From: Trueperaceae bacterium
GTDB lineage: Bacteria; Deinococcota; Deinococci; Deinococcales; Trueperaceae
Assembly (NCBI GenBank): GCA_007130855.1
Contig: SLRS01000128.1
Location: 1-32,158, forward strand
Direction of reading: 5' to 3'
Length of the DNA: 32,158 bases
Position numbers and translations under genes: made by a program. The notes beneath the pieces were generated by a model, which ran no database searches, was not told the origin of the DNA, and saw only the letters and a list, made by a program, of their open reading frames with translations. Shown one piece after another: positions 7,754 through 32,098 of this stretch (its first letter is position 1; every line of letters starts with the position of its first letter).

Positions 7754-7801
7754 CGGAATCGACCTCGAAAGGAGCGCCAGTCGCCTGGTTCAGGCATGGC
7801 C

Positions 7802-8713: not shown

Positions 8714-8774
8714 CGTCAGCGCGCATCCTCAGGGGGTGGGGCTTGCAGGGACGCTCGGGCGTAGCTAGCGTCGG

Positions 8775-10313: not shown

Positions 10314-10392
10314 GAAGGCCTCCTGGTCGAGTTCTCGGTGTATCGGAACCAACGCTGCCGCGCTGTCCGAAGCGTGCGCGTCCACGTCGTGC

Positions 10393-11997
10393 TCAGCACG
10401 TGACCAGGCCACCACCCCCCCTCGGATCGGCGACGGCTTCCCAAGAGCCGTCACGATGCTTGAGGATCGTGCACATCGGTACGGCCATGTTGACGACGAT
10501 CGACTCCCAGCCGAGTCGCTCGAGCTCCGACCGAGTCTGCTGTGGAAAGGTCGGCTCGAGGTACAGCTTCCCCGGCGCGTACTCGGCGTGGATACGTGGG
10601 TGCTCCAGGGCGTCATGGAGTGACGCCCCGAACGTGAACAGGTCGACGAGAACCTGCAGCTCCGCCGTTACCCGATACCTGCTCTTCGAGCCGCTCACGA
10701 TCTCCGGCGCACCCGCTCGCATGAGCATGAGCGGCGAGCAGCCGTAGAGTGGGCTCTTGCCGGCAGCGATGCTGTCGTTGTAGCCCGGACGCGGATCGAA
10801 GTTGTGCATGTGATGGTTGTGGAGGAAGCCGAGGCCGGGTGTGACGACGCCCGCGCTATTGCCGTTGGAGTGCGTGAAGCTCGCCGCATTGCCCCAGCGG
10901 TCGACCGCCGACACGTGGGTGGTATCACCCGAGCCACTCGCGCCGGCACCGGCTGCCAGCCGCGCTCCCTGGTCGATCTCGACAGCCAGTTGCTTCGCAC
11001 GCTCGCGCGAGTGGAACGACGCGATGGGCACGTCGACGAAGTTCGGATCTGCGTTCCAGCGAGCCCGATCGCGGTAGATGACCTGGAACACGCGCGCGAG
11101 GAGATCGTAGTAGCTCGGTGAGCGCCAGCCCGCGCCGACGAGATCGAGCTCCTGCAGGATATGCAGCGCCTCGATCTCGAGCGAGCCCATGCTGGGGCTC
11201 CGTTCCGTCAAGACCTCCATGCCGTGGAAGGTGCCGCTAACGGGTCGTTCGAACGGCGTGCGGTAGGTGCGCAGGTCCTCACGCGTCACGAGCGCTCCGT
11301 TGGCCTCGAAGTCGTCGGCGATCGCGCGCCCGATGTCGCCCTCGTAGAAGACGTCGGCTCCCTCGGCTGCGATTCGGCGAAGCGTGCGCCCGTAGTCGGG
11401 CTGGTACAGCCTCTCACCGATGCCGTAGACCGACCCGTCGTCCTTGAGGTAGATCCGCGCGCACTCCTCGGTGGCGGTGAGCGTGACGCGTGGGTCGGGG
11501 CTGTCGCCATGCCGCACCCGCTGCGGATCCCAGAACGAGAACGTGAACTCGTCGATCGTCACGCCGTCTTCGGCCGCCTCGACGGCAGGTTCCAGCAGTG
11601 CATCCCATGCCAGTCGTCCGAATCGTTGGTGCGTATCCCACGTTCCGCGGACGAAGCTGGGGATCGTGATGGACTGGTAGCCGACGTAGTTCGCCCAGCC
11701 GCGCGCCCTGAAGCGGTTGGCGAACACCGTGGGCTCGATGTCCGGGTACACCCGCTCGTGCGCGAGGGAGCCGGCGCGCGAGCCGAAGTTTGCCATGACG
11801 CTTTCACCCGTCTCGGACTCATGCACGAGGATGTGTCCGGTGCCTCCGATCCCACACATGAGGGGATTCACCAGGCCCTGTGCGTAGGCCGCGGCGATCA
11901 CCGCATCGACCGCATTCCCACCGGCTCGCAGGACACGGCCGCCCGCCTCGGCGGCAAGCGGTTCTGGGCATACGACGATCGCGTCTCCTCGAGCCAT
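10393..11997 (-). CDS. Gamma-glutamyltransferase-family hydrolase, atypical active site
   Basis: A 534-aa N-terminal-nucleophile (Ntn) hydrolase of the gamma-glutamyltranspeptidase family. The N-terminal half contains AEAGGRVLRAGGNAVDAVIA. The self-processing site and nucleophile are in GDTTHVSAVDRWGNAASFTH, where the second Thr aligns with the catalytic Thr of E. coli Ggt. GVVTPGLGFLHNHHMHNFDP is also typical. Two pocket motifs differ. The E. coli PLSSMSP loop, whose serines hold the substrate carboxylate, is here PLYGCSP. The GSPGGSR oxyanion loop is here GSKSR, two residues shorter. No signal peptide is seen, so it is probably cytoplasmic. It likely cleaves an amide or gamma-glutamyl-like bond in an imported compound. 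ATG at 11997 follows AGGAGG, which overlaps the aldolase stop. The family is firm and the substrate open. Confidence 0.88.
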   Translation of the reverse strand: MARGDAIVVCPEPLAAEAGGRVLRAGGNAVDAVIAAAYAQGLVNPLMCGIGGTGHILVHESETGESVMANFGSRAGSLAHERVYPDIEPTVFANRFRARGWANYVGYQSITIPSFVRGTWDTHQRFGRLAWDALLEPAVEAAEDGVTIDEFTFSFWDPQRVRHGDSPDPRVTLTATEECARIYLKDDGSVYGIGERLYQPDYGRTLRRIAAEGADVFYEGDIGRAIADDFEANGALVTREDLRTYRTPFERPVSGTFHGMEVLTERSPSMGSLEIEALHILQELDLVGAGWRSPSYYDLLARVFQVIYRDRARWNADPNFVDVPIASFHSRERAKQLAVEIDQGARLAAGAGASGSGDTTHVSAVDRWGNAASFTHSNGNSAGVVTPGLGFLHNHHMHNFDPRPGYNDSIAAGKSPLYGCSPLMLMRAGAPEIVSGSKSRYRVTAELQVLVDLFTFGASLHDALEHPRIHAEYAPGKLYLEPTFPQQTRSELERLGWESIVVNMAVPMCTILKHRDGSWEAVADPRGGGGLVTC

Positions 11998-12008
11998 GGT
12001 GATTCCTC

Positions 12009-12773
12009 CTAGGCGCCGGCTCGCTCGAGCCAGGTACGAAGTCCGGGGATCAACACCGATTGCAGACTGCAACGGACCATGAGCGCGCCTCGGTCGATCC
12101 ACGTCTTCGCCTCATCGCCGTCTTGCACCGTCACCTGCAATGCCTTCGTCGAGGCAATGATCTTGTCCTGGGCCGCCCGGCCGACTCGCAGCACATCGGG
12201 ATGCCCCTTGTCGGCGGGGTGCCCCATCGTGAGCGCGAGATCTCCGAATCCGATCACGACCGCATCCAAGCCGTCCACGTCGAGGATTGCGTCGATGTTG
12301 GCGAGCCCCTGCTCGTCTTCGACCAGCGCGACGACCACTGTTCGATGGTTCTCCGAGGCGTAGAACGCCGGGTTGGGACCCCCGGCAGCCCAGCGCGCCG
12401 GCCGGAACTGGCCGGCACTGCGAACGCCGAGAGGCGGATACTTGACCGCGCTGACGGCGAACTCGACGTCCGCTCGGCTGCGGACGTGCGGGAGAACGAT
12501 GCCGGTTACGCCCGTCTCCAGGTAGCGCAGAATCGCTTCAGGGTCGCGGGTCTGGGACAGCCGAACGATGGTCTCCATGCCAGCGACCTCGGCAGCACGC
12601 ACCACGTTCGTCAGCGAGTCGAGATCGAACGGGCCATGCTCCAAGTCCAGCCACAACCAATCGAAGCCCAGATACCCACTCAGCTCGGCAAGCTCAGGTG
12701 ACGGCCAGAGCAGACCGATCCCGAATGAAGGCTGGCCGAGCTCGAGGCGCCGCCTGAGACCATTCGTCTGCAT
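12009..12773 (-). CDS. HpcH/HpaI-family class II pyruvate aldolase
   Basis: A 254-aa TIM-barrel enzyme of the HpcH/HpaI aldolase/citrate lyase family, which cleaves 2-oxo-hydroxy acids to pyruvate (or a related oxo acid) and an aldehyde. It keeps the catalytic His after Glu in WLDLEHGPF, an Arg in TIVRLS, and two metal-ligand candidates: Glu in ALVEDEQGLANID and Asp in VVIGFGDLA. YPPLGVRSAG is also a family hallmark. It is the first gene of the minus-strand operon. Its stop overlaps the ribosome site of the hydrolase gene 11 bases on, so the two are probably coupled. Upstream lies the palindromic promoter region shared with the RraA-type gene. Confidence 0.9.
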   Translation of the reverse strand: MQTNGLRRRLELGQPSFGIGLLWPSPELAELSGYLGFDWLWLDLEHGPFDLDSLTNVVRAAEVAGMETIVRLSQTRDPEAILRYLETGVTGIVLPHVRSRADVEFAVSAVKYPPLGVRSAGQFRPARWAAGGPNPAFYASENHRTVVVALVEDEQGLANIDAILDVDGLDAVVIGFGDLALTMGHPADKGHPDVLRVGRAAQDKIIASTKALQVTVQDGDEAKTWIDRGALMVRCSLQSVLIPGLRTWLERAGA

Positions 12774-14669: not shown

Positions 14670-14834
14670 CGACGCGCGCGATACCGAGATGTCGAGCGGG
14701 TGAGGCGTCCGAACCACCACGTTCGGTGCGCCGATCGGGTCGAGGCTGTCGATGTGCTCACCCCCCTCGCTGCGAGTTGCCACGTCGAAGAGGTGGTACG
14801 AGACGCTGCCGAGCGAGCCCTGGAACTCCCGCAC
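14670..14834 (-). pseudogene. Possible minus-strand coding remnant
   Basis: The minus strand reads from a GTG at 14834 through MREFQGSLGSVSYHLF (taking GTG as start) and then SLDPIGAPNVVVRTPHPLDI, with strongly coding-like third positions. The frame stays open to 14511 but there becomes an Arg/Pro-rich antisense of the DUF2277 gene. It may be a gene remnant whose 3' end was replaced. No family is recognised, and chance is possible. Confidence 0.25.
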
Positions 14835-14901
14835 GACGAGCCCTGCGCGGCGGCGCCGGGTACGGTGTGAGCCCACGCCAGCGCAGGCCACTTCGCGCTG
14901 C

Positions 14902-14907
14902 TATGGT
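14902..14907 (+). promoter_or_regulatory. -10 element, probable leaderless start
   Basis: TATGGT is six bases before ATG (14914), the same geometry as at the DUF2277 gene. No Shine-Dalgarno sequence is present in between. Confidence 0.5.
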
Positions 14908-14913
14908 CACACG

Positions 14914-17520
14914 ATGCCTCCCACGGCGCTCCTCGAACGCGACGAGCAGCTCCGCAGCCTGCGCTCGCGCCTGACGCAGGCCGCGTCGGGAAGTGGCGCC
15001 ATGGTGCTCGTCGGGGGCGAGGCCGGGATCGGCAAGTCGGCGCTGGTTCGACGCTTCTGCGAGGACGCTGCGCGCACGGCCCGGGTGCTGATCGGGGGAT
15101 GTGACGCCATGCAGACGCCCCGCCCACTCGGGCCCCTGTTGGACATGGCGCCCGGCCTGGGGCCGCCGCTCACGACGCTGCTCGGCGACGAAAGCGCCCG
15201 GCAACGCGCCTTCGAGCACCTGCTGGACGCGTTTCGTGCCCGAGCGACTGTGGCCGTGTTCGAGGACGTCCACTGGGCCGACGACGCGACACTCGACCTG
15301 CTGCGCTTCCTCGGTCGCAGGCTCGACGCCACGCGCGGCCTCGTGGTCGCCACCTACCGCCGCGAGGAGCTCGGGCCGCGCCATCACCCCCTGAAGGCGG
15401 TCCTGGGCGACCTCGCGAGCGTCACGTCCGTGACACGCATGAGCGTCCCACCCCTGAGCCGCGACGCGGTCGCCCACCTCGCCGCGGGCATCGACGCCGA
15501 CCCCGACGAGCTGCACCGCCTCACGGCCGGCAACCCCTTCTTCGTCACCGAGGTGGTGGCGGCCGGCGGCGACCGGCTCCCGACGAGCGTCAGCGACGCG
15601 GTCGGCGCGCGCGTCGGGCGGCTGCCCGACGCGGCGCGCGATGCGCTCCAGGCCGCCAGCGTCATCGGCCTCACGGTGGAGCCCAGCCTCCTCACGGCGC
15701 TCGGTCACAGCGTCGACGCGATCGAGGCGTGCCTCATCGGCGGGTTGTTCGTCGAGCACGAGGGCCGGCTGGCGTTCCGCCACCAGCTGGCGCGCGACGC
15801 GATCCACGACACGCTCTCCGCACCACGCCGCCGCGCGCTCCACGCCGCAGCGCTCGCGACCCTGGAGCGCGCACCCGGGGCAGGCACCGACCGCGCCACG
15901 CTCGCGCACCACGCCGCGGAAGCAGGCGACGCCGACGGCGTCCTGCGCCACGCACCCACCGCTGCCCGCAAGGCAGCCGCGCTCGGCGCCCATCGCGAAG
16001 CGCACGCCCAGTTCGCGCGCGCCCTCCCCTACCTCGACCGGCTCCCGGACGACGAGCACACCGAGCTGCTCGCGGCCTACGCGTACGAGTGCGAGGTCGT
16101 CGACCGTCACCCCGAGGCCAGGGACGCGTGGCGCTCGGCGATCGAGCGCTGGCGCGCGGCCGGAGAGCGCGAGCGCTGGGCGGACGCACACACCGACTTG
16201 GCGCGCGTCCTGTTCCACCTAGGCGACAACGCCTCCGCCGAGTCAGCGAGCGCCCGTGCGATCGAGGTGCTCGAGGGCCTCCAGGCCGGAGCGCCCTTGG
16301 TGCGCGCCTACCAGTACCGCGCCGCGCTGCGCATGCTGGAGCGCGACCCCGAGGCAGCGATCACATGGGGGACCCGGACCATCGAGCTCGCGACGGCGGC
16401 CGGCGACCACCGCACCCTCGCGGGCGCCCACGTCACCGTGGCGTCCTCGCTGATGCTCGCAGGACGGCCGAGCTACGCCCCCCACTTCGAGCGCGCCATC
16501 GCGCTGGCCGAGGCGCACGGCCTCCACGTGCTCCACGCCAACGCCCACCTCAACCGCGGCTCCGGCGCCGGCGAACTCCACCGGTTCGACGAAGCCGAGC
16601 ATCACCTGCGCCAGGCCGTGGCGATCGCCGAGCAGCACGACCTGGACTCGCAGACGTCGTACGCCCTGGCGTGGCTGGCCCTCACACGCCTCTACCGCGG
16701 CGACTGGGACGAGGCCGCGGCGTTGACAGGGCGCTCGCTCGTGCGCTCCTCGACGTCGACGATCACGCGGATCATGGCGCTCGCTGCCCTCGGTCGCCTG
16801 CGCGTGCGCCGCGGCGACCCGGAAGCCTGGCCGCCGCTCGACGAGGCCCTCGAGCTCGCGCTCCGCACCGGAGCGTTGCAGCGCCTCGCCCCGGTGCGAG
16901 CAGCGCGTGCGGAGGCCGCCTGGTTCGATGGCGACCTCGACCGGGTGCGCAGCGAGGCCGCGGCCTGCTTCGAGCTCGCCGCCCAGGCACGGCACCCGTG
17001 GTTCGTCGGCGAGCTCGCATACTGGCGCTCCCTGGCAGGCGACCTCGACGCGCTTCCCGCGTTCGCCGCCGAGCCCTTCGCGCTGCAGGTGCAGGGTCGG
17101 CACAGCGACGCCGCCGCGGCCTGGGCCACGCTCGGATGCCCCTTCGAGGCGGCCCGCGCCTTGGGCGAGAGCCTAGATGAGCGCCATGTCCGAGACGCCT
17201 TCGACGCCTTCACCCGCCTCGGCGCCCGCGTAGCAGCCGACCGCGCTCGCGCGCACCTGCGCGAGCGCGGCGCCAAGCGCATCCCGCGTGGCCCTCGCGA
17301 GCGCACCAAACGCCATCCTGCCGGCCTGACGCCACGCGAGGCACAAGTCCTCGCGCGGCTGGTGGACGGCCTGTCGAACGCCGACATCGCCGCACGCCAC
17401 CGCGTCAGCCCACGCACCGTCGAGCACCAGGTCTCCGCCGTCCTGTCCAAACTCGGCGTCGACAGCCGCACAGCCGCGATCGCAGAGGCGCACCGACGCG
17501 GCCTCATCGACCCAACGTAG
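14914..17520 (+). CDS. Large ATPase-LuxR transcriptional regulator (LAL type)
   Basis: An 868-aa cytoplasmic regulator. The N-terminal AAA/STAND ATPase has Walker A GGEAGIGKS at residues 34-42 and Walker B VAVFED at 113-118, followed by HWADD. The middle, about 330-780, is helical with TPR-like repeats (for example AEHHLRQAVAIAEQHDLDSQ), probably an effector- or partner-sensing array. The last 64 residues form a LuxR/GerE helix-turn-helix: LTPREAQVLARLVDGLSNAD, then VSPRTVEHQVSAVLSKLG. Length and order match LAL regulators such as the MalT group. The start was chosen at the ATG six bases after TATGGT; the longer frame overlaps the preceding intergenic DNA. The targets are unknown; nearby candidates are the DUF4242 and secreted-protein genes downstream. 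Confidence 0.9.
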   Translation: MPPTALLERDEQLRSLRSRLTQAASGSGAMVLVGGEAGIGKSALVRRFCEDAARTARVLIGGCDAMQTPRPLGPLLDMAPGLGPPLTTLLGDESARQRAFEHLLDAFRARATVAVFEDVHWADDATLDLLRFLGRRLDATRGLVVATYRREELGPRHHPLKAVLGDLASVTSVTRMSVPPLSRDAVAHLAAGIDADPDELHRLTAGNPFFVTEVVAAGGDRLPTSVSDAVGARVGRLPDAARDALQAASVIGLTVEPSLLTALGHSVDAIEACLIGGLFVEHEGRLAFRHQLARDAIHDTLSAPRRRALHAAALATLERAPGAGTDRATLAHHAAEAGDADGVLRHAPTAARKAAALGAHREAHAQFARALPYLDRLPDDEHTELLAAYAYECEVVDRHPEARDAWRSAIERWRAAGERERWADAHTDLARVLFHLGDNASAESASARAIEVLEGLQAGAPLVRAYQYRAALRMLERDPEAAITWGTRTIELATAAGDHRTLAGAHVTVASSLMLAGRPSYAPHFERAIALAEAHGLHVLHANAHLNRGSGAGELHRFDEAEHHLRQAVAIAEQHDLDSQTSYALAWLALTRLYRGDWDEAAALTGRSLVRSSTSTITRIMALAALGRLRVRRGDPEAWPPLDEALELALRTGALQRLAPVRAARAEAAWFDGDLDRVRSEAAACFELAAQARHPWFVGELAYWRSLAGDLDALPAFAAEPFALQVQGRHSDAAAAWATLGCPFEAARALGESLDERHVRDAFDAFTRLGARVAADRARAHLRERGAKRIPRGPRERTKRHPAGLTPREAQVLARLVDGLSNADIAARHRVSPRTVEHQVSAVLSKLGVDSRTAAIAEAHRRGLIDPT

Positions 17521-20230: not shown

Positions 20231-23200
20231 TCACAGCAAGCCCTCGGTCTCGGCGACGGCGACGGCGCGTTGGAGCGCCGCGCTCACCTCCGGTTCACCG
20301 GCCGCCTGCAGGGCGCACGCCAGCGCCTCCGTCAGGGCGTTCGGAAGACGCTGCCGGTCGGGTTCGAGCAGCGGCGCCGCACACGCCAGCGCCTCCTCGT
20401 GCCTGCCCTGCCGCAACCGGACCGCCATCAGCGGCAAGCGTGCGCTCCATTGCAGGGGATACCACCGCCCCGAGCGCCAACACGCCAGCGCCGCCTCGCC
20501 CTCGCGCTCACACGTCGCGAGATCCTCGCCCCGCCACGCCAACCATGCCAGCTGACCGTGTGCCGCGCCAGCGTACTCGGGCATCGGCAACGCCGTCGCG
20601 GCCTCCAACGCACGGTCCGCATACGCCCGCGTCGCATCCCGGGTCCCCGCCAACCGGTGCGCGAAGCTGAGGTACGTCAAGCAGCTGACACGCATGACGG
20701 CGTTGCCGACCAGTTCGCTCGCGGCCAAGGACTTATCGAGCTGCGTCTGGGCCTCGCTGCGATCGTCCTGCCACAGCAACGCGAAGCCGAGCAGGAAGTG
20801 CGCGATGATGGTGAGGCCTGCGACGTTCGCCACCTCCGCCTCCGCCAGGGCAGCGCGCAGGCGCGCAACGGCCTCGTCGGAGTGGACGAAGCCGCCGCGC
20901 GCGAAGATCGCGAATCCCAGGCGCGCGTAGACCTGGCCTCGTTCGAGCGCCGTGCCGCGGCGCTTCACGGCCGTCTCCATGCGCTTGAGTACCCGCTCGT
21001 TCTCGTCCCATTCGCGCTGCCAGTGGAGCCTGTCGCTGCGCGCGAGCCCCAGGTCGATCCACTCCCGCCACCACGCGCTGCCATCACCGGCGTCACCCGG
21101 GCCGAGCTCGGCCTCGGCCGCCACGAACGCCGCGAGCGCTTCGCCGTAATCGTACTGGGCCACCCAGGCCGAACCGATCTTGCGCCACAGCCGTGCCCGG
21201 CTGATCCGTTCCGGCACCGGCGTCCGCGCGAGTGCGCCGGCGAAGCGCTCGCGGGCAGCCTCGTGCAGTCCCTGCAGCGCGAAGACGTCACCGAGACCCT
21301 CGAGCAGCTGAGCACCGACATCGTCCCGCCAGCGCGTGAAGGCCTCACTCGCCGGCAGACCGTCGAGCAAGACCAGTGCTCGCCGGTAGGCCTTGACGGC
21401 CTCCTCGCTCGCGTAGAGCGCGCGCGCCGCCTCGGCCGCCTGCCGGTAATACGGGATCGCCCGCTCGGGGGAGCCGGCGAGGTCGTAGTGATACGCGATC
21501 TGCCCGCTCTCGCCCCCGGCGAGGTTCTCGAGCGCTTCGGCGGTATGGCGGTGGAGCAGACGCCTGCGGGTCAGGCTCAACGCGCCGTAGGCGACCAGGC
21601 GCAGCTTGTCATGGCTGAAGTCGTACTGACCCGCTCCCACCTCACGTACGATGCGCCGCTGCCACAGCTCGTCGAGGCCTCGTACCACCTCCTCGTCGCG
21701 CTGGCGGCTCACCTTCACGAGTAACTCGAATCCGAACTCGCGCCCGATGACGGCCGCTATGCTCACGAGCGCGAAGGACGGCGGCGACAGCTGCTCCAAG
21801 CGCGAGCTGATCACCGCGCGCAGCTTCGGCGGCAAGGACGCCGCGTGCGTTTCGCCGGTCGACGCTTCGTCCTCGGAACGCTCGATCCAGCCGTCGCGTA
21901 GCATCTCCACCACGAAGAGCGGGTTCCCTTCCGTCTCCTCGAACAGCGCCGTCAACGCCTCGGGCTTCGGATCCGCTCGCCACAGACTTCGCGCCAGCAT
22001 GCCCGTCTCGACCTCACTGAGCGGGCCGAGCTCCACTTCGCGCATCAGCTCCTCGCTGCGCAGTGCCGCGAGCAGCCCCACCAGGGCGGCGTTGGCGCCG
22101 ATCTCGTGCGTTCGCGCCGTGGCCAGCACGAGCAATTGAGCGCGCAGGTCGAACCGTAGCAGGAAGTGGAGCCACTCCAGCGTGTCACGATCGCACCACT
22201 GCAGGTCGTCGATCATCGCCAGCATCGGCTGATGGTGCGCCAGCGCCACGCGCGCCAGGGCCTCGAAGAGGCGCTGGCGCTGCCAGTTCTCGGTGAGGGG
22301 TCCGAGCGCACGCGACCGGTCGTCGGCCAGCTCTGGAAGCAGCCGGCTCACCTCCCCACGCCAGACCGGATCGAGCTCAGCCGACGGGGCCGCCAGCAGC
22401 GCACCGCGCAGGAGGGCCGTGACGGGCGCGAAAGCGAGCGCACCCTCGGCGGCATAGCAGCGGACGGCGACCCGGAGCGCCTCACGCCGCAAGAGGCCAC
22501 GGGCGTACTCCTCGACCAGTCGCGTCTTGCCGATACCGGAGTCGCCGGTCACGAGCACCAGCAACGCCCGACCCGCTCTGGCACTCTGCCACGCCGTTCG
22601 CAAGCGTGCCATCTCCGGCGATCGCCCGACGAGCGGCGCGACGGTCGCAAGGGCTGCGTGGCGGGTATCGTCGGCCCTCGTCAGCGCGCCAGGTCCGCCC
22701 TCGGGGTCGCGTTGCAGCACCTGCTCGTACGCCGCGAGGGTCGCACCGGTCGGTTCGATGCCAAGCTCGCGCTGCAACAGCGACACACAGGTGTGGTAGG
22801 TGTGCAACGCCTTCGCTCGCTCACCGCAGAGCGCGTGGAGCCGCATGAGCCGCCGGTACGGTGCCTCCACCAGTGGATCGTGCTGCACGAGCCGCCGCGT
22901 GTAGCGCACCGCGGCACGGTAGTCGCGCTGGCCCTCTGCCAGCGTCACGAGGCGCTCGAGGACGCCGGCATGGCTGCCCCGCAACCGTTCGCGCGCGTCC
23001 TCCACCCAGGCGTCGTACATCTCGGGCAGGAGCTCGCCGCGGTAGAGCCGCACCGCCTCGTCCAACCATGCGCGTTCCAGCGTGACGTCCTCGGCATCCT
23101 GCGCCTGCTCGGCGCGGACGACCGCCGCCTCGAAGCGCGCGACGTCGAGTTCGCACGTGGCGTCCTCGCGCCACTGCAGCCACTGCCCGTCCAAGTCGAG

Positions 23201-23446
23201 GTAGTGCTCCGCCTGCGGCAGCGAATGGCGCAGCTGGTACAGCGCTTGGCGGAGGTTCGTCCGCGCTTGCCCCTCGTCGGACTCCGACCACAACAAGAAC
23301 GCCAACCGCGCCCGTTCGTGGGGGCGGTCGCGGTGCAGGAGCAGGTAGGCAACGATCGCCCGAACGCGTGCCGAAGCCAACTGCACGATGGCGCCGTCGT
23401 ACTCGAGCCTCAGACCACCGAGCATACGGACGGTGAGCGCCACCAC
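20231..23446 (-). CDS. Large SARP/AfsR-like regulator (BTAD + ATPase + TPR-like), copy A
   Basis: A 1071-aa cytoplasmic transcription activator. Residues about 1-95 are an OmpR-like winged helix (VRMLGGLRLEYDGAIVQLA, then RTNLRQALYQLRHSL). A bacterial transcriptional activation domain (BTAD) follows to about 250 (LYRGELLPEMYD, LVQHDPLVEAPYRRLMRLHA). The STAND-type ATPase has Walker A GDSGIGKT at 301-308 and a Walker B ending MIDDLQWCD. The C-terminal 450 residues are helical, TPR-like repeats. The frame is open for 116 codons upstream, but that stretch is antisense to the SnoaL-like gene and not protein-like. GTG at 23446 (or 23443) follows AGGAG and aligns with the starts of copies B and C. 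A probable promoter is TTGCTG (23524-23519) with TATCAT (23500-23495). It is divergent from the SnoaL-like gene, its likely target. Confidence 0.88.
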   Translation of the reverse strand: MVALTVRMLGGLRLEYDGAIVQLASARVRAIVAYLLLHRDRPHERARLAFLLWSESDEGQARTNLRQALYQLRHSLPQAEHYLDLDGQWLQWREDATCELDVARFEAAVVRAEQAQDAEDVTLERAWLDEAVRLYRGELLPEMYDAWVEDARERLRGSHAGVLERLVTLAEGQRDYRAAVRYTRRLVQHDPLVEAPYRRLMRLHALCGERAKALHTYHTCVSLLQRELGIEPTGATLAAYEQVLQRDPEGGPGALTRADDTRHAALATVAPLVGRSPEMARLRTAWQSARAGRALLVLVTGDSGIGKTRLVEEYARGLLRREALRVAVRCYAAEGALAFAPVTALLRGALLAAPSAELDPVWRGEVSRLLPELADDRSRALGPLTENWQRQRLFEALARVALAHHQPMLAMIDDLQWCDRDTLEWLHFLLRFDLRAQLLVLATARTHEIGANAALVGLLAALRSEELMREVELGPLSEVETGMLARSLWRADPKPEALTALFEETEGNPLFVVEMLRDGWIERSEDEASTGETHAASLPPKLRAVISSRLEQLSPPSFALVSIAAVIGREFGFELLVKVSRQRDEEVVRGLDELWQRRIVREVGAGQYDFSHDKLRLVAYGALSLTRRRLLHRHTAEALENLAGGESGQIAYHYDLAGSPERAIPYYRQAAEAARALYASEEAVKAYRRALVLLDGLPASEAFTRWRDDVGAQLLEGLGDVFALQGLHEAARERFAGALARTPVPERISRARLWRKIGSAWVAQYDYGEALAAFVAAEAELGPGDAGDGSAWWREWIDLGLARSDRLHWQREWDENERVLKRMETAVKRRGTALERGQVYARLGFAIFARGGFVHSDEAVARLRAALAEAEVANVAGLTIIAHFLLGFALLWQDDRSEAQTQLDKSLAASELVGNAVMRVSCLTYLSFAHRLAGTRDATRAYADRALEAATALPMPEYAGAAHGQLAWLAWRGEDLATCEREGEAALACWRSGRWYPLQWSARLPLMAVRLRQGRHEEALACAAPLLEPDRQRLPNALTEALACALQAAGEPEVSAALQRAVAVAETEGLL

Positions 23447-23565: not shown

Positions 23566-23619
23566 GGAACGCCGGCACGGGACCCGAGAACGCTTTCGGA
23601 ACGCTGGCCTCTCTAGGGT
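23566..23619 (+). promoter_or_regulatory. SARP-type activator site and promoter of the SnoaL-like gene
   Basis: Heptamers GGAACGC (23566-23572), AGAACGC (23587-23593) and GGAACGC (23598-23604); the last two are 11 bp apart. After 9 bp comes TAGGGT (23614-23619), a TANNNT -10. The position expected for a -35 (23591-23596, CGCTTT) is not a consensus hexamer. Known SARP sites are direct heptamers with 11-bp period, 8-10 bp upstream of the -10. The same layout recurs at 31052-31084. Confidence 0.65.
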
Positions 23620-23639
23620 CGGGCGGGAGGAGGTCATCC

Positions 23640-24149
23640 ATGCGCACATGGAAGCAGTCGATGCTACTCGCCAGCCTGTTCCTCTTGAGTTTCGTGATCA
23701 TGCCGCCGTTCGTCGTCGCACAGACGAGCGACGGCCTGCCAGAGGCGAGGGAGGGCACCTCGGCCGGCAGCCTCGCGGTCATGTTGGAGTTCATGGTCGA
23801 CCACGACCCCGCGTTCTACGCCGAGGACGCGGTGTTCCACGTCATGGCGATGCCGGAGCCGTACGTGGGCCGCGAGGCGATCGGCGCGGCGCTGGCGACG
23901 TTCTACGGCGGCGCCTTCACCGACACCCACGTCGAGCTCCGGACGATCCTGGCCGACGGCACGCGGGTCGTGCTGGAGTTCGTCTACAACGGCACCCACT
24001 CGGGCGAACTGATGGGGATGCCGGCGACCGGCCAACGCGTCAGGGTCCCGATGCTCGGCATCTACGAGATCGAGGGCGACCACATCCGCGAGGGCAGGCT
24101 GTACTACGACGCGGCGACGATGATGGCGCAGCTGCGCCCGACCGAGTGA
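23640..24149 (+). CDS. Secreted SnoaL-like/ketosteroid isomerase-like protein
   Basis: A 169-aa protein with a signal peptide (MLLASLFLLSFVIMPPFVVAQ, cleavage probably at VAQ near residue 28). The mature domain has the SnoaL-like pattern: FYAEDAVFHV, VGREAIGAALATFYGGAFTD, FVYNGTHSGELMGMPATGQR and IYEIEGDHIREGRLYYD. Such domains bind or isomerise hydrophobic small molecules; export is less usual for them. GGGAGGAGG precedes the ATG. The promoter carries the SARP-type repeats, and the divergent neighbour is a SARP-type regulator, so regulation by it or its paralogues is likely (inference). Confidence 0.85.
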   Translation: MRTWKQSMLLASLFLLSFVIMPPFVVAQTSDGLPEAREGTSAGSLAVMLEFMVDHDPAFYAEDAVFHVMAMPEPYVGREAIGAALATFYGGAFTDTHVELRTILADGTRVVLEFVYNGTHSGELMGMPATGQRVRVPMLGIYEIEGDHIREGRLYYDAATMMAQLRPTE

Positions 24150-24169
24150 GCGGACCGACCCGGGTCCGC
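24150..24169 (+). terminator. Hairpin after the SnoaL-like gene
   Basis: GCGGACC and GGTCCGC, 7-bp arms with a 6-base loop, directly after the stop codon. There is no T-run. A longer stem follows at 24235-24284. Confidence 0.4.
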
Positions 24170-24234
24170 CCTGCTGGAGACGAACACCTACGAACATAGC
24201 CGTCGGCAGGTGATCCCGCCCGCGGCCCTGAACG

Positions 24235-24284
24235 CGAGGGCGAGCGCGCCCCTTCAGCTACGTGCCGGAGCGCGCTCGCCCTCG
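24235..24284 (+). terminator. Long 15-bp-stem inverted repeat
   Basis: CGAGGGCGAGCGCGC (24235-24249) and its perfect complement (24270-24284) enclose a 20-base loop. It lies between the SnoaL-like gene and regulator copy B. It probably insulates the two transcripts; the large loop leaves room for another role in the leader of copy B if transcription enters from upstream. Confidence 0.5.
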
Positions 24285-24382
24285 AGGGCCTCGCACCCGA
24301 TGCACGACCCCGCCTCGAGCCCTATGATCAGGCATCAGCAGCACTGTCGTGGCGACCCGGCCGGTGGAGGGAGAGGGGTCCC

Positions 24383-27300
24383 GTGGCGACGCTTCTCTTC
24401 CGCCTGCTCGGCGGGCTCCGCATCGAGCGCGACGGTGCCGCGGTCGAGTTGGGTCCGCAGCGGGCCAGGGGGCTGGTCGCCTACCTCCTCGTCCACCGGG
24501 ACCGACCGCACCCCCGTGCGCGTCTTGCCTACGTCCTGTGGCCCGAGTCGAACGAGGCGCAAGCCCGGACCAACCTGCGCAAGACGCTCCATCAGGTCCG
24601 TCGGTCGCTGCCCGAGGCGGAGGGGCTCGTCGTCCTGGATGCCCAGGCGCTGACCTGGCGGCCGGAAGCCGAGTTCGAGCTCGACGTGGCGCGGTTCGAC
24701 GAGGCAGTCGAGCGCGCCCAACGGGCCGAGGCGGCGGGCGAGCTGGCCCTGGAGCGGGAGCACCTCGAGGCCGCGGCCAACCTCTACCGCGGCGACCTGC
24801 TGCCGGAGCTGTACGACGACTGGCTCGAGACCGAAAGGGAGCGCCTGCACCAGCGCTTCGGCCACGTCCTCGAGCGGCTCGTCGACGTGCTCTGGCTGCA
24901 GCGCGACGACCGCGCGGCCGTCGACTACGCCCAGCGGCTCGTGCAGCACGACCCCCTGGTGGAGTCCAGCTACCGTCAGCTGATGCGACTGCACGCCCGC
25001 TCGGGTGAGCGGGCGAAGGCGCTGCACGTCTACCACCGCTGCGCTTCGATCCTCCAGGAGCAGCTGCGGATCGCCCCCGGCGAGGAGACCACAGAACGCT
25101 ACGAGGACGTGCTGCGGCTCGAACCCGAAGCTGGGATGGACGCAGCGAACGCGTCACACGCTCCCGGCCCCGCCTTGATCGCCGACGCCCCGCTCGTCGG
25201 TCGGCGATCCGAGTTGGGCCAGCTCCAAGCCGTCTGGGACCAGGCGCACGGCCGGCCGCGGCTCGTGCTCGTGACCGGCGACTCCGGCATCGGCAAGACG
25301 CGGCTGGTCGAGGAGTTCACCGGAGCGTTCAGGCGCGAGGCGGCTGTCATCGCCACGCGCTGCTACGCCACCGAACGCTCGCTCGCCTTCACGCCGCTGA
25401 TCACGCTGCTGCGCACCCCCGTCGTCAGGAACGCACTGCACGACCTCGAGCCCGTCTGGCGCCGCGAGTTGAGCCGGTTGCTCCCCGAGCTCGAGGACGA
25501 CGCGACCGGAGCTCCGAGCCCCCTGACCGAGGGTTGGCAGCGCCGGCGGCTCTTCGAGGCGCTCGCGCACGCGGTGCTGGCAACGCAGCCGCTGCTGGTG
25601 TTCATCGACGACGTGCAGTGGTGTGACGGCGACAGCCTCGACTGGCTCCACTACCTGCTGCACCTCGAGACCGGCGTCCGGTTGATGCTGGTGGCGACGG
25701 CCAGGACGCACGAACTCGACGCCTACGCTCGGCTCGGCGGGCTCCTGGAGGATCTCGAGCGCGACGGGCTGCTGACACGCATCGAGCTCGCGCCGCTCAG
25801 CGAGGCGGACACCATGCACCTCGCGCGCAGTCTGCATCAGCGCGAACCCGAGCCGGAAGCGCTCGCCGCGCTCGTCGCGGAGACGGAAGGAAACCCCCTG
25901 TTCGTCGTGGAGATGGTGCGAGAAGGAGCCCTCGCCACGAGCCCAGCGGCGATCGCAGGCGAGGGGCGCCAAGTCACGGCCCTGCCCCGGAAGGTACGCG
26001 CCGTGATCGCCTCGCGCCTGGAGCGGCTGTGCGCACCGACCTCGGAGCTGTTGGGGATGGCAGCAGTGATCGGGCACGACTTCGACTTCGATCTGCTGGT
26101 GCAGGTGAGCCGACTGCCCGAAGACGTGGTGGTGAAGTGCCTCGACGAGCTCTGGCGCGGCCGCATCGTGCGCGAGCTCCGCGCTGGTCAGTACGACTTC
26201 AGCCACGACAAGCTGCGCGAGGTGGCCTATGGCGAGCTGAGCCTGACCCGCCGGAGGCTCTTGCACCGCTACACGGCCGAAGCACTGGAAGGGCTCGACC
26301 TCGGCGAGCGCGAGGGCGTGCACGCACAGATCGCCTACCACTACGACCGCGCCGGCTACGCCGAGCGGGCCATCGCGCACTACCAGCAGGCCGCCGCCGC
26401 GGCGCGGAGCCTCTACGCCCACGAGGAAGCGCGCTTGTCCTACCAGCGCGGCCTGGAGCTCGTCGACGAGACGCCGACGACTGCCGTGCTGGCGAGCTGG
26501 CGGCGCGTCGCCGCTGGGGAGCTCGAGGAGGGCCTCGGCGACATCCTCGGCCTCAAGGGTCTTCACGAGGACGCCAGGGAGCGCTTCGAACGCGCGCTCG
26601 AGCACCGCAGCGGCGAACGGATCGCCTGCGCCCGGCTCTGGCGCAGGATCGGCCTGGCGTGGACGGCGCGGTGCCGTTACGACGAGGCAGCCCAGGCCTA
26701 CTCGTCGGCCGAAGCGGTGCTCGACAGCGCAGACGCGGCGGCCGACGCCGACTACTGGCGTGAGTGGATCGACATCCGCCTCGAGCGCAGCACCCTGTAC
26801 TACTGGCAACTCGACTGGCGCGAGTGCGGAGGCGTGCTCGAGTCCATGGAGCAGGTCGCCATGCAGCATGCGACGCCACTGCAGCGCGGCAGGTACTTCA
26901 CCGCCCTCGCCAATCAGCACTTCACCCTGAACCGCTGGACCATGGCAGCCGAGGGCGTGGAGTACATGCGCGCTGCGCTCGCCGGGGCCGAGGATTCGGG
27001 CTCCCTGGCCGACATCGCCACGGCTCGCTTCGCCCTGGGGTTCGCTCACCTCTGGCACGGGGACCTGGTACCTGCCGCGGAGCAGCTCGCGGCGGCCCTC
27101 TCGATGAGCGAATCAATGGGCAACTCGGTGCTCAGAGCCCGGATCCTGACGTACCTCTGCTTCCTCCACCGCCGGCGCGGCGACGCTGCGGGGACGCAGC
27201 GCTACGCCGACGAGGGCTTGGCCGCCGCGCGCGCGCTGGCGATGCCCGAGTACGTCGGCGCCGCACACGGTCACCTGGCGTGGCTGGCGTATCGACGCGA

Positions 27301-27598
27301 GGACCGCGGGGCCTGCCTCGGCGAGGGCAGCGCGGCGCTGCGGAGTTGGGAGACGGGGCAACGCTATACCTTGCAGTGGTGCGCGCGCCTGCCGCTCCTC
27401 GCAGTGAACCTGACGCAGGACCGGCTGAGCGAGGCCGTGTCGAACGCGGCCGCCATGCTCGAGCTCTCCCAGCAACGCCTACCGGACGACCTCACGGAGG
27501 CGCTCGGGTGTGCCGTACTGGACGGAGCCGAACCGGACGCGGTGCGATCAGCGCTCGAGCGGGCGGTCGCCCTGGCCGTAGCTGCGAGGCTGCTGTGA
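24383..27598 (+). CDS. Large SARP/AfsR-like regulator, copy B
   Basis: A 1071-aa protein with the same order as copy A. The winged helix starts at FRLLGGLRIERDGAAVELG and contains RTNLRKTLHQVRRSLPEAEG. The BTAD follows to about residue 250 (LYRGDLLPELYDDWLETERE, LVQHDPLVESSYRQLMRLHA). The ATPase has Walker A GDSGIGKT at 299-306 and Walker B LLVFIDDVQWCD from 404. The TPR-like C-terminal half contains YDFSHDKLREVAYGELSLTR. It starts at GTG after GGAGGGAGAGGGG. A TATGAT (24323-24328) may be its -10. It is much more similar to copy C than to copy A, including the ribosome site and first codons, which marks a tandem duplication. Confidence 0.9.
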   Translation: MATLLFRLLGGLRIERDGAAVELGPQRARGLVAYLLVHRDRPHPRARLAYVLWPESNEAQARTNLRKTLHQVRRSLPEAEGLVVLDAQALTWRPEAEFELDVARFDEAVERAQRAEAAGELALEREHLEAAANLYRGDLLPELYDDWLETERERLHQRFGHVLERLVDVLWLQRDDRAAVDYAQRLVQHDPLVESSYRQLMRLHARSGERAKALHVYHRCASILQEQLRIAPGEETTERYEDVLRLEPEAGMDAANASHAPGPALIADAPLVGRRSELGQLQAVWDQAHGRPRLVLVTGDSGIGKTRLVEEFTGAFRREAAVIATRCYATERSLAFTPLITLLRTPVVRNALHDLEPVWRRELSRLLPELEDDATGAPSPLTEGWQRRRLFEALAHAVLATQPLLVFIDDVQWCDGDSLDWLHYLLHLETGVRLMLVATARTHELDAYARLGGLLEDLERDGLLTRIELAPLSEADTMHLARSLHQREPEPEALAALVAETEGNPLFVVEMVREGALATSPAAIAGEGRQVTALPRKVRAVIASRLERLCAPTSELLGMAAVIGHDFDFDLLVQVSRLPEDVVVKCLDELWRGRIVRELRAGQYDFSHDKLREVAYGELSLTRRRLLHRYTAEALEGLDLGEREGVHAQIAYHYDRAGYAERAIAHYQQAAAAARSLYAHEEARLSYQRGLELVDETPTTAVLASWRRVAAGELEEGLGDILGLKGLHEDARERFERALEHRSGERIACARLWRRIGLAWTARCRYDEAAQAYSSAEAVLDSADAAADADYWREWIDIRLERSTLYYWQLDWRECGGVLESMEQVAMQHATPLQRGRYFTALANQHFTLNRWTMAAEGVEYMRAALAGAEDSGSLADIATARFALGFAHLWHGDLVPAAEQLAAALSMSESMGNSVLRARILTYLCFLHRRRGDAAGTQRYADEGLAAARALAMPEYVGAAHGHLAWLAYRREDRGACLGEGSAALRSWETGQRYTLQWCARLPLLAVNLTQDRLSEAVSNAAAMLELSQQRLPDDLTEALGCAVLDGAEPDAVRSALERAVALAVAARLL

Positions 27599-27780
27599 GC
27601 GGCGCCTCGACGCCGCAGGCCACTCCGGCGCGCGCGACGGCGACGACATGGTCGCGCCCGACCCCTGTGGGGCACGCTCGTCGTCTCAGTCGTCACCACG
27701 GACACAACCGACCGCTCCACCTGCCACAATGGCCGGCACGACCAGCGTGACGGCCCGGGCCAGCGGAGGGAGGGGATCCC

Positions 27781-30700
27781 GTGGCGACGCTTCGCTTCCG
27801 CCTGCTCGGTGGGCTCCGGATCGAGCGGAGCGGAGCCGCGGCCGAGCTCGATCCCCCGCGCGCGCGAGTCCTCGCCGCCTACCTCCTCGTGCACCGCGAC
27901 CGCCCGCACCCCCGTGCCCATCTCGCCTACACGCTGTGGCCCGAGTCGGACGAGGCGCAAGCCCGGACCAACCTGCGCAAGACGCTCCACCAGCTCCGTC
28001 GCTCGCTGCCCGACGTGGAAGGGCTCCTCGCCATCGACGCTCGAGCGCTGCGGTGGCGATCCGAGGCCGAACTCGAACTCGACGTGGCGCGGTTCGAGGA
28101 GTCGATCGAGCGCGCTCGGCTCGCCGAAGCAGCGGGTGAGCTCGACGTCGAGCGCGAGCACCTCGAGGCGGCAGCCGGCCTCTATCGCGGGGACCTCTTG
28201 CCGGAGATCTACGAGGACTGGCTCGAGCACGAGCGGGAGCGCCTCCGCGAGCGCTTCGGTCACGTCCTGGAGCGGCTCCTCGACGTGCTCTGGCTGCAGC
28301 GCGACGACCGCGCTGCGGTCGGCTACGCCCAGCGGCTCGTGCAGCACGATCCACTGGTAGAGTCCAGCTACCGTCAGCTGATGCGATTGCATGCCCGCTC
28401 GGGAGAGCGGGCGAAGGCGCTGCACGTCTACCACCGCTGCGCCTCCGTGCTCCACGAACAGCTGCGGATGACGCCCAGCGAGGAGACCGTCGCGCTCTAC
28501 GAGGACGTGCTGCGGCTGGAACCCGAAAGTGGAATGCCCGAGACGAGAGCGCCGGTTGGAGTGGGTTCAGCCGTGGTCTCCGAAGCGCCGCTCGTCGGTC
28601 GCCGCCGCGAGTTGAGCCGGCTGCGAGCCGCCTGGGCCGAGGCGCGCGGTGGGAGGCCGGGGCTGGTGTTCGTCACCGGCGACTCCGGAATCGGCAAGAC
28701 GCGGCTGGTCGAGGACTTCGCTCGGACGCTCCCGAGGCACGAGGCGGCGGTCGTCGCCACGCACTGCCACGCGACCGGGGACTCGCTCGCCTTCGCGCCG
28801 CTCATCGCGCTGCTGCGCACTCCGGTCCTCAGGAGCGCCCTGCAGGACCTCGAGCCCGTGTGGCGGCTGGAGGCGGGCCGCCTGCTCCCCGAGCTCGACG
28901 ACGAGGCGACCCGTGCCACTGGCCCATTGACCGAGGGTTGGCAACGCCGGCGGCTCTTCGAAGCGCTCTCCCACGCCATGCTCGCCAGCCAGCCGCTGAT
29001 CGCGTTCGTCGACGACGTGCACTGGTGCGACGGCGACACCCTCGACTGGCTCCACTACCTGCTGCGGTTCGGCACCAGCGCTCGGTTCATGCTGGTCTTG
29101 ACGGCCCGCACGCACGAGCTCGACGCCAGAGCGCGGCTCCGGGGCATCCTCGAGGATCTCGAGCGCGACGCGCTCGTGACTCGAATCGAGCTGGCCCCCC
29201 TCGCCGTGGAGGAGACCATGACCCTCGCACGCAGTCTGCACCAGCACGACCCCGAGCCGGAGGCGCTCGCCGCGCTCGTCGACCAGACCGAGGGCAACCC
29301 CCTGTTCGTGGTCGAGATGGTGCGAGAAGGTGCGCTCGCCACGAGCACTCCGGCGATCGCACGCGCGGAGCGACCGGCTACGACCTTGCCCCGGAGGCTG
29401 CGCGCCGTGATCGCCTCGCGCCTGGAACGCCTGAGTGCCGGCAGCTCCGAACTGCTGGGCATGGCCGCGGTCATCGGGCGCGAGTTCGACTTCGACCTGC
29501 TCGTGCAGGTGAGCCGCCGGGACGAAGACGCGGTGGTCACGAGCCTCGACGAGCTCTGGAGAAGGCGCATCGTGCGCGAACTCGGTGCCGGCCAGTACGA
29601 CTTCAGCCACGACAAGCTGCGCGAGGTGGCCTACGGCGAGTTGAGCCTGACGCGCCGGAAACTGCTGCACCGCTACACGGCCGAAGCGCTCGAAGCACTC
29701 GATGCCGGCGAGCGCGAGGGGGTGCACGGCCAGATCGCCTTCCACTACGACCGTGCCGGCTACGCCGAGCGTGCCATCGTGCACTACCAGCGGACGGCAG
29801 AAGCGGCACGGAGCCTCTATGCCCACGAAGAGGCGCTCTTCTCCTACCGACGCGGCCTGGAACTGGTCGACGAGCTGCCGGTGACGACCGCCCTCGAGCC
29901 CTGGCGGCGCCTCGTCGCTGGGGAGTTCGAGGAGGGCCGCGGCGACATCATCGCCCTACAGGGGCTGCACCAGGACGCTAGCGAGCGCTTCGAGCGCGCG
30001 CTCGAGTATCGCAGTGGCGACGCGATCACCTGCGCCCGGCTCTGGCGCAAGATCGGCCTGAGTCGGACGGCGCAGTACCGCTACGACGAGGCCCTGGGGG
30101 CATTCGAGGCGGCGGAAGCGGCGCTCGGCACTGCGGCGGCGGCGGCGGACGAGGCCTGGTGGCGGGAGTGGATCGACATCCGCCTCGAGCGCAGCGCCCT
30201 GTACTACTGGCAACTCGACTGGCGCGAGTGCGGACGCTTGCTCGTGTCCATGGAGCACGACGTCACCCGGCATGCGGCCGCGCTGCAGCGCGGCCGGTAC
30301 TTCAGCGCCCTGGCCAACAAGGACTTCGCTCAGCACCGCTGCACCGTTTCGGCCCAGCGTCTGGAGTACTCCCGCTCAGCGCTCGCCGCGGTCGAGGAGT
30401 CGGGTTCCATCCCCGCCATCGCCACGGCGCGGTTCAGCCTCGGGTTCGCCTACCTCTGGCACGGTGACCTCGAGCAGGCCACCGAGCAGCTCGAGGCGGC
30501 TCTCGCGATGAGCGAATCGATCGGCAACGTGGTGCTCAGAACCCGTTGCCTGACCTACCTCGCCTTCGTCCACCGCAAGCGCGGCGACACTGCGGCAACG
30601 CAGCGTTACGCCGACGAAGGCCTCGCCGCCGCCCGCGCGCTGACGATGCCCGAGTACGTCGGCGTCGCCCACGGTCACCTGGCGTGGCTGGCGTGGCGAC

Positions 30701-31002
30701 GCGAGAAGCACGGAGCCTCGCGGCGTGAGGGCCGTGCTGCGCTGCGGAGTTGGGCGACGGGGCAACGCTACCCCTTGCAGTGGTGTGCACGCCTGCCGCT
30801 CATTGCGGTGAGCCTGCTCCAGGATCGACTGAGCGAGGCCGTGTCGAACGCGGCGGCACTGCTCGAGCCCTTCCAGCAACGCCTGCCCGACGACCTCACC
30901 GAGGCGCTGGAGTGCGCCGTGCGGGCCGAAGCCGATCCGGGCGCGGCTCGATCGGCGCTCGAGCGCGCGGTCGCCCTGGCCGTAGGCGCACGGCTGCTCT
31001 GA
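27781..31002 (+). CDS. Large SARP/AfsR-like regulator, copy C
   Basis: A 1073-aa tandem paralogue of copy B, 182 bases downstream in the same direction. Winged helix from FRLLGGLRIERSGAAAELD; BTAD with LYRGDLLPEIYEDWLEHERE; Walker A GDSGIGKT at 300-307; Walker B ending FVDDVHWCD (DD at 411-412); the TPR-like C-terminus ends AVALAVGARLL, as copy B ends AVALAVAARLL. GTG follows GGAGGGAGGGGATCCC, the same leader as copy B. Differences from copy B are spread over the gene, denser in the linker after the BTAD (residues about 250-265) and in the TPR part. All motifs needed for ATP and DNA binding are intact in both copies. A CACAAT near 27734-27739 may be its -10. It lies next to the NmrA-like gene, a likely target. 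Confidence 0.9.
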   Translation: MATLRFRLLGGLRIERSGAAAELDPPRARVLAAYLLVHRDRPHPRAHLAYTLWPESDEAQARTNLRKTLHQLRRSLPDVEGLLAIDARALRWRSEAELELDVARFEESIERARLAEAAGELDVEREHLEAAAGLYRGDLLPEIYEDWLEHERERLRERFGHVLERLLDVLWLQRDDRAAVGYAQRLVQHDPLVESSYRQLMRLHARSGERAKALHVYHRCASVLHEQLRMTPSEETVALYEDVLRLEPESGMPETRAPVGVGSAVVSEAPLVGRRRELSRLRAAWAEARGGRPGLVFVTGDSGIGKTRLVEDFARTLPRHEAAVVATHCHATGDSLAFAPLIALLRTPVLRSALQDLEPVWRLEAGRLLPELDDEATRATGPLTEGWQRRRLFEALSHAMLASQPLIAFVDDVHWCDGDTLDWLHYLLRFGTSARFMLVLTARTHELDARARLRGILEDLERDALVTRIELAPLAVEETMTLARSLHQHDPEPEALAALVDQTEGNPLFVVEMVREGALATSTPAIARAERPATTLPRRLRAVIASRLERLSAGSSELLGMAAVIGREFDFDLLVQVSRRDEDAVVTSLDELWRRRIVRELGAGQYDFSHDKLREVAYGELSLTRRKLLHRYTAEALEALDAGEREGVHGQIAFHYDRAGYAERAIVHYQRTAEAARSLYAHEEALFSYRRGLELVDELPVTTALEPWRRLVAGEFEEGRGDIIALQGLHQDASERFERALEYRSGDAITCARLWRKIGLSRTAQYRYDEALGAFEAAEAALGTAAAAADEAWWREWIDIRLERSALYYWQLDWRECGRLLVSMEHDVTRHAAALQRGRYFSALANKDFAQHRCTVSAQRLEYSRSALAAVEESGSIPAIATARFSLGFAYLWHGDLEQATEQLEAALAMSESIGNVVLRTRCLTYLAFVHRKRGDTAATQRYADEGLAAARALTMPEYVGVAHGHLAWLAWRREKHGASRREGRAALRSWATGQRYPLQWCARLPLIAVSLLQDRLSEAVSNAAALLEPFQQRLPDDLTEALECAVRAEADPGAARSALERAVALAVGARLL

Positions 31003-31051
31003 CCGGCGTCCGCAACCCCGGGCAACCCCGCGCCGACGTAGCCTGGGACCG

Positions 31052-31084
31052 GGAACGCTTTCGGAACGGCGCTCGACCTAGGCT
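31052..31084 (+). promoter_or_regulatory. SARP-type activator site and promoter of the NmrA-like gene
   Basis: GGAACGC (31052-31058) and GGAACGG (31063-31069) are 11 bp apart. After 9 bp comes TAGGCT (31079-31084). The hexamer 17 bp upstream of the -10 is CGCTTT, identical to the SnoaL-like promoter and unlike a -35. The 16 bases GAACGCTTTCGGAACG are identical at both sites, and GGGACC precedes both. Confidence 0.65.
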
Positions 31085-31138: not shown

Positions 31139-32098
31139 ATGATCCTGGTCGTCGGCGGTACCGGCCAGCTCGGGACGAGGGTGACCGAGAAGCTGCTCGC
31201 AGAAGGCAAGCGGGTGCGCGTCATGACGAGGACGCCAGAGAACGGAAGGACCCTCACCGACTTGGGCGCCGCAGTGGTCGGCGGCGACCTGCGCGATCAG
31301 GACTCGATCAGGCGCGCCTGTGACGGCGTCGAGCGCGTGGTCGCCTCGGCGCACGCGCTCACCGGCAAGGGAGGCAACGATCCGCGTTCCGTCGACGACG
31401 CCGGCAACCGCCGCCTCATCGACGCCGCCCTCGGGGCCAGGGTCAGCCACTTCGTCTTCGTCTCGGCCCTCGGCGCGGCACCGCGACACCCGCTCGAGTT
31501 CTACCGCATCAAGCACCGGATCGAAACCCGGCTCGCCGAAAGCGGGCTGAGCTACACCGTCCTCCGTCCACCGGCCTTCATGGAGACCTGGGCCGGCCTG
31601 ATCGGCGACTCCATCATCGCGCGCGGGAAGACCACGATCTTCGGGCCGGGCCGCAACCCCATCAACTTCATGGCGGTCGACGACCTCGCCCACTACGTGC
31701 TGCTCGCCCTCTACCACCCGGGGGCGCGCAACCGCGTCATCGAGATCGGCGGGCCCGAGAACCTCTCGGCCGTAGAGGTCGCCGAGACGTTCGAGCGCGT
31801 GACTGGCCGCCGCGCCAAGCGGTCGCACGTGCCGCTGCCGGTGCTGCGTGTCATGAGTGCCCTATTGCGCCCCATCGACGGAGCCGCGAGCCGGCTCATG
31901 GCCGCCGCCGTCCACCTCAACAGCAGCGATCAGACGTTCGACGCCTCACGCACGCTCGCCGAGTTCCCACTCCGGTTGACGCGCCTCGAAGAGCTCGCGC
32001 AGCGTCGCTACCGCCTCGCACGCGAAGCGGCCGTGGCGGGCGACTCCCCGGCCGATACCGGCCCGCGGCCGAGCACCGCTCCGACCCAGCGGTCGTAG
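31139..32098 (+). CDS. NmrA-like/atypical SDR NAD(P)-binding protein
   Basis: A 319-aa Rossmann-fold protein starting MILVVGGTGQLG, with the dinucleotide motif GGTGQLG at residues 6-12 and an Arg (VMTRTPE) after the second strand that suggests NADP(H). HFVFVSALGA, FYRIKHRIETRLAESGLSYT and VLRPPAFMETW are typical of NmrA-like oxidoreductases or redox sensors; the classical SDR Tyr-x3-Lys is present as YRIKH with altered spacing. The C-terminal 20 residues are Pro/Thr-rich and probably disordered. GGAGGTGGAG precedes the ATG. Its promoter carries the SARP-type repeats. It may reduce a small molecule or sense redox state; the substrate is unknown. Confidence 0.88.
   Translation: MILVVGGTGQLGTRVTEKLLAEGKRVRVMTRTPENGRTLTDLGAAVVGGDLRDQDSIRRACDGVERVVASAHALTGKGGNDPRSVDDAGNRRLIDAALGARVSHFVFVSALGAAPRHPLEFYRIKHRIETRLAESGLSYTVLRPPAFMETWAGLIGDSIIARGKTTIFGPGRNPINFMAVDDLAHYVLLALYHPGARNRVIEIGGPENLSAVEVAETFERVTGRRAKRSHVPLPVLRVMSALLRPIDGAASRLMAAAVHLNSSDQTFDASRTLAEFPLRLTRLEELAQRRYRLAREAAVAGDSPADTGPRPSTAPTQRS

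Follow-up and report, generated by a model that had tools for sequence, protein, structure and literature searches.

Repeat sites at two promoters beside a cluster of three large regulators as predicted operators of AfsR/SARP-type activators

The window, by which we mean the whole 32,158-nucleotide stretch of DNA analysed here, comes from a 3.55-Mb genome assembly of 287 contigs and contains three regulators of the SARP type together with two genes that share a promoter sequence. Its family is probably one of the Deinococcota, perhaps Trueperaceae, to judge from genes resembling those of Thermus in one member of the order and from a protein of another member that closely matches a purine nucleoside phosphorylase of solved structure. 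The features on which the argument turns are these:

20231..23446, minus strand: SARP1, a wHTH-BTAD-AAA_16 regulator, divergent from target gene 1 (presumed GTG start)
23566..23571, plus strand: extra GGAACG unit, 21 bp upstream of the first repeat of predicted operator 1
23588..23603, plus strand: predicted operator 1, GAACGCTTTCGGAACG, two GAACGCTT-type units with an 11-bp period, over the -35 position
23614..23619, plus strand: predicted -10 of target gene 1, TAGGGT, 10 bp past the second GAACG
23640..24149, plus strand: predicted target gene 1, secreted SnoaL-like protein, 169 aa (Pfam PF07366, 8e-24)
24383..27598, plus strand: SARP2, a wHTH-BTAD-AAA_16-TPR regulator
27781..31002, plus strand: SARP3, a tandem duplicate of SARP2
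31053..31068, plus strand: predicted operator 2, GAACGCTTTCGGAACG, about 50 bp past the end of SARP3
31079..31084, plus strand: predicted -10 of target gene 2, TAGGCT
31139..32098, plus strand: predicted target gene 2, NmrA-like/atypical SDR protein, 319 aa (Pfam PF05368, 1e-32)

The preliminary description of this DNA had placed three BTAD regulators between the two genes, and by their Pfam domains these are real: BTAD (PF03704; E values of 5e-24 to 3e-27) and AAA_16 are found in all three, and TPR_12 weakly in SARP2. The tandem duplication that relates SARP2 to SARP3 is visible as long 16-mers common to 24379-27566 and 27777-30970. SARP2 is similar to AfsR (PDB 8hvr) over residues 3-248, the whole SARP domain (phmmer E=8e-18), and the N-terminal OmpR-like winged helix aligns without gaps to AfsR ODB residues 24-97 in 8k60/8hvr; PF00486 is not reported for the window SARPs, and relatives give weak matches to it. 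The window proteins score far below the equivalog cut-off of the NCBIfam AfsR model (9e-17 to 4e-21) and are therefore not AfsR itself. The product of target gene 1 has a signal-like hydrophobic N-terminal stretch, and target gene 2 has two paralogues in its own genome which likewise bear the site. A LuxR-type large ATP-binding (LAL) regulator with AAA_16 and GerE domains is encoded within a few kb of the SARP cluster (14752-17520, plus strand), so that the window holds four STAND-type regulators. Elsewhere, 2193-12773 contains two gene sets for dipeptide/oligopeptide ABC importers (SBP_bac_5 with permeases) that run in opposite orientations, after which come genes for a gamma-glutamyltranspeptidase (10393-12102) and an HpcH/HpaI aldolase (12009-12773).

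Ahead of the SnoaL-like gene the sequence reads AGAACGCTTTCGGAACG at 23587-23603, then 10 bp, then TAGGGT; ahead of the NmrA-like gene it reads GGAACGCTTTCGGAACG at 31052-31068, then 10 bp, then TAGGCT. Both promoters thus have the form GAACGCTTTCGGAACG-N10-TAGGNT, and the coordinates and sequences are as given when it was first proposed that the two share heptamers with an 11-bp period. Also confirmed at both is the proposal that the last heptamer lies 9 bp from TAGGNT (10 bp if the gap is counted from GAACG) and that CGCTTT, 17 bp ahead of the -10, occupies the -35 position. A search for a consensus sigma-70 promoter found none. The possibility that the two window sites are products of the SARP2/SARP3 duplication was dropped, because, of the two duplicates, SARP3 alone is followed by operator 2, and operator 1 precedes the SnoaL gene.

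In a GC-rich genome, a repeat of this kind might be a matter of chance or composition, and the identity of the 16-mer is not in itself unusual: a Markov copy of the 70% GC window yields about two repeated 16-mer pairs. A longer pattern was needed because shorter repeat searches were either at background level, as for GGAACG-N5-GGAACG with up to three mismatches in the window, or confounded by coding repeats, as for plain GAACG pairs genome-wide. The pattern GAACG-N6-GAACG-N10-TANNNT has two exact matches in the window against a shuffle mean of 0.01, and across 39 family genomes it has 47, compared with a single match when the pattern is reversed. With these counts and the fixed -10 offset described below, chance is already refuted for the set and its probability as a general explanation is negligible; single sites could still be chance, and one of the 47, in G022, seemingly lies inside a coding frame.

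The promoter of the SnoaL gene can be followed across genomes, three of which have the same block and a fourth an almost identical one, forming an island in diverged flanks. The orthologous secreted SnoaL genes of G005 and G004 have AGAACGCTTTCGGAACGCT unchanged both in sequence and in distance from the ATG, and that of G006 has AGAACGCTCTCGGAACGC. As -10, the window and G006 have TAGGGT, and the other two have weak elements (CACACT in G005, GAGACT in G004), which counts against the interpretation that we favour below. The extra heptamer noted earlier at the SnoaL site is indeed present at 23566, but its position is not kept in the orthologues; in G004 a third unit lies 11 bp upstream in its place.

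The anatomy of the motif emerges most clearly from the seven genomes of the genus, in which GAACGCTT-N0..25-GAACG was searched with the -10 left out of the pattern. Almost half of the pairs (27 of 55) fall at a gap of 3, which is the 11-bp period, and the remainder are spread over the other 25 gaps. Adding one site with GAACGCTC to these 27 gives 28 repeat-pair sites; TANNNT starts exactly 10 bp past the second GAACG in 22 of them, NANNNT in 25, and none has TANNNT at the remaining offsets between 4 and 17. A third copy of the repeat is found at G000:C267, G000:C161, G003:C309 and G031:C519, and in the three-unit site of G003:C309 the distance from the last unit to the -10 is unchanged. Among the 47 exact sites of the family, positions 6-8 of the first unit, which the pattern did not select, are conserved (C in 37, T in 38, T in 34), as are positions 6-7 of the second (C in 36, T/C in 45), and positions 9-11 differ little from background, so that the unit consists of GAACGCTT followed by three free bases. 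Eleven exact sites are distributed over ten contigs of the window's own genome, which makes this a dispersed regulon rather than one confined to the cluster. The original observation that the site stands at the genes flanking the SARP cluster holds for both genes, but not as a restriction to them. Far from being common genome-wide without link to promoters, the outcome that the preliminary description had set against its own proposal, the motif is rare and promoter-like; the Thermus-like genomes of the order (f2-f4) have no exact site.

A promoter-like position also brings sigma factors to mind. Some ECF groups typically have SnoaL- and NmrA-like genes for neighbours, and GGAAC resembles ECF -35 elements, so that it might be read as the -35 of an alternative, ECF-type sigma factor. 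The gaps to the -10 are 10-11 bp and 21-22 bp where 16-17 would be needed, a misfit already recognized in the preliminary description, and such a factor would leave two to three repeats with an 11-bp period unexplained. We consider it very improbable.

Direct repeats of 11 bp that replace the -35 are also found in the Pho box of PhoB and PhoP. The sites here have the same operator geometry, and PhoB and PhoP have the same DNA-binding fold as SARPs. Anatomy alone cannot separate an OmpR-type regulator from a SARP, because the winged-helix fold, the 11-bp repeats and the replacement of the -35 are common to both, and the protein that binds the sites might be a response regulator of PhoB/OmpR type with no relation to the SARPs; each genus genome has 5-10 Trans_reg_C matches, and the majority of sites are not beside a SARP. 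What argues against it is the company that the sites keep. The seven genus genomes have ~45 genes for OmpR-type response regulators, of which not one is on a site-bearing contig, and the Trans_reg_C matches on site contigs are the SARPs themselves and nothing else. The linkage of sites to SARPs, by comparison, recurs across several genera within the family, and again in a sister family. A response regulator of this type is in our estimation unlikely.

The linkage can be put in numbers. Within 1 kb of a BTAD/SARP gene lie 11-12 of the 47 exact sites (p 7e-14 to 5e-8) and, if up to one mismatch is allowed, 11 of 50 (p 2e-12 to 4e-8), about a quarter where ~1-3% would be expected by chance; these p-values are optimistic because some of the sites are orthologous, and roughly eight of the SARP-site arrangements look independent. 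The order SARP-site-gene is found at SARP3 of the window and at G000:C267, where a SARP is followed by a three-unit site and then another NmrA gene, G010:C77, G011:C3, where the gene is a 263-residue open frame, G007:C703, G007:C633, G023:C121 and, in the sister family f5, G042:C21 and G054:C78. The order site-SnoaL-SARP occurs in the window and at G004:C23, G005:C22 and G006:C8. At G023:C121 and G007:C633 a site stands directly ahead of a SARP gene, and at G027:C190 a GAACAC-variant site is upstream of one. A wHTH close to those of SARP1-3 is present in nine of 15 site-bearing genomes against one of 24 site-less ones (Fisher 2e-4), and the sole exception among the latter is G027, with its GAACAC variant.

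Weighing on the other side, about three quarters of the sites have no SARP gene beside them. SARPs with the closest wHTH but no adjoining site occur at G000:C46, G002:C463 and G028:C182, and the site-bearing G001 and G003, which are incomplete assemblies, have no close SARP1-3-like wHTH. A linkage scan of SARP-selected loci cut at 1.5 kb gave a weak result, the 3' flank being mostly missed, and wider stretches were then taken. A scan of genome contigs with SARP2 gave distant relatives only. In favour of the link, no such site was found near the more distant plasmid-borne SARPs of Cupriavidus, Paraburkholderia, Deinococcus, Meiothermus and Nostoc, which are 30-41% identical and carry other helices.

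In a sister genus of lower GC content, about five SARP-type sites lie in 11 kb around two tandem SARP genes (L187, G007:C633, 6700-17201), a regulon island. A variant operator, GAACGTTTTTGGAACGC, occurs in sister family f5 at L255 (G042:C21) 5391, L256 (G042:C47) 5234 and L257 (G054:C78) 7160 and 5897, at two of these loci directly after a SARP gene with the helix ARNNLRKE. At L227 (G031:C519), a SARP is seemingly split over adjacent frames (3932-5442), and a perfect triple-repeat site at 8646 is ~3 kb from it.

The recognition helices of the site-linked SARPs have the form AR(T/R/N/Q)NLR(K/Q/R), for example QARTNLRKTLHQLRRSL in SARP3, and those of many unlinked SARPs differ, in a comparison made after the linkage had been seen; the helix of SARP1 is GQARTNLRQALYQLRHSL. 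When aligned on AfsR, the phosphate contacts W74, R87 and R94 are kept, but the base contacts T88 and R92 are replaced by K/Q and Q (PMC10936776). The target sequence is thus not derivable from AfsR, and the altered base-contact residues are in line with a different one.

Among the closest known systems is AfsR with its afs box in Streptomyces coelicolor (PMC10936776; PDB 8hvr/8jke/8k60). There, the contacts that the SARP makes within each 11-bp repeat are confined to the first eight bp, the last three being left free, and it is the upstream repeat that extends over the -35 (PMC10936776). The likeness extends to the wHTH-BTAD-NTPase-TPR regulator, similar over its whole SARP domain, the two 11-bp direct repeats over the -35, their division into eight contacted and three free bases, and a weak -10. 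In contrast, the predicted operator here is GAACGCTT-NNN and the afs box is CGTT(T/C)ATCGNN (PMC10972967), the base-contacting helix residues differ, the targets are SnoaL, NmrA and secreted proteins rather than afsS, and the host is not Streptomyces and probably not an actinobacterium. PimR-type SARP-LAL operators resemble the present sites in having heptamers with 4-bp spacers in two or three copies, but the PimR consensus is CGGCAAG and its main operator is not over the -35 (PMC5930380).

With a probability of roughly 85%, we read the two window sites as predicted operators of AfsR/SARP-type activators, for which one or more of the three adjoining regulators are the likeliest candidates, and very probably a regulator and its DNA target can be paired here from sequence alone. 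This is the reading that the preliminary description had put forward, and it is supported by the period of 11, the fixed -10 spacing, the 8+3 unit, recurrence beside SARP genes and the lack of OmpR-type response-regulator genes on site contigs. By analogy with AfsR, two regulator molecules would sit side by side, one on each 11-bp unit of GAACGCTT and three free bases, covering the non-consensus -35 so that the operator would take its place. They would hold RNA polymerase on the TANNNT -10 that starts 10 bp past the second GAACG, and the STAND NTPase and TPR parts linked to the BTAD might gate activation in response to a signal. Binding, activation and the paralogue acting at each site we infer from repeats, spacing, recurrence, promoter-like position, conservation and SARP-gene linkage, which are direct observations.

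The genes downstream of the sites encode SnoaL/NTF2-like proteins of several families, three NmrA-like SDRs, flavodoxin-ferredoxin proteins (in two genomes), a DUF3237 protein, a DinB-like protein, a methyltransferase, an acyltransferase and numerous small secreted proteins that match no Pfam family; no antibiotic gene cluster was seen, and there are no pho/pst genes among the annotated targets. The same promoter class would then control a dispersed regulon of SnoaL/NTF2-like, NmrA-like SDR, DUF3237, flavodoxin-ferredoxin and small secreted proteins in the genus and, in sister genera, the genes beside SARPs and some of the SARPs themselves. At six loci (L065, L070, L074, L057, L260, L261), the site promoter is followed by a partly conserved leader of 200-300 bp that shares CTACGCTC..., GGCGCCGGGAG and GGAGGCAGACGACACG and precedes a small secreted or DUF3237 protein. 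This leader may be an RNA element.

The mechanism is one that is already known, but the operator sequence, the regulon and the pairing with regulators appear to be new within the open-access literature searched, in which we found no description of SARP operators in this bacterial group. Nearly all that is known of SARPs comes from antibiotic clusters of Streptomyces. Here a predicted SARP operator sequence, its promoter geometry and its regulon could be read off the genomes themselves, with paired regulators in many of them, which provides material for how SARP recognition helices read DNA and bears on the role of large STAND-type SARPs outside antibiotic production. More tentatively, and at less than even odds, the whole family might share one SARP operator code, in which GAACGCTT-NNN repeats are set at a constant spacing to the -10 and several paralogous STAND-SARPs do the reading. 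What it would serve is then no antibiotic cluster but a dispersed regulon, sensing stress or chemistry, of small secreted proteins and SnoaL/NmrA-like ones. If this is true, the co-evolution of operators and helices, as in the GAACGCTT, GAACAC and GAACGTTTTTG variants, would let the SARP recognition code be deciphered.
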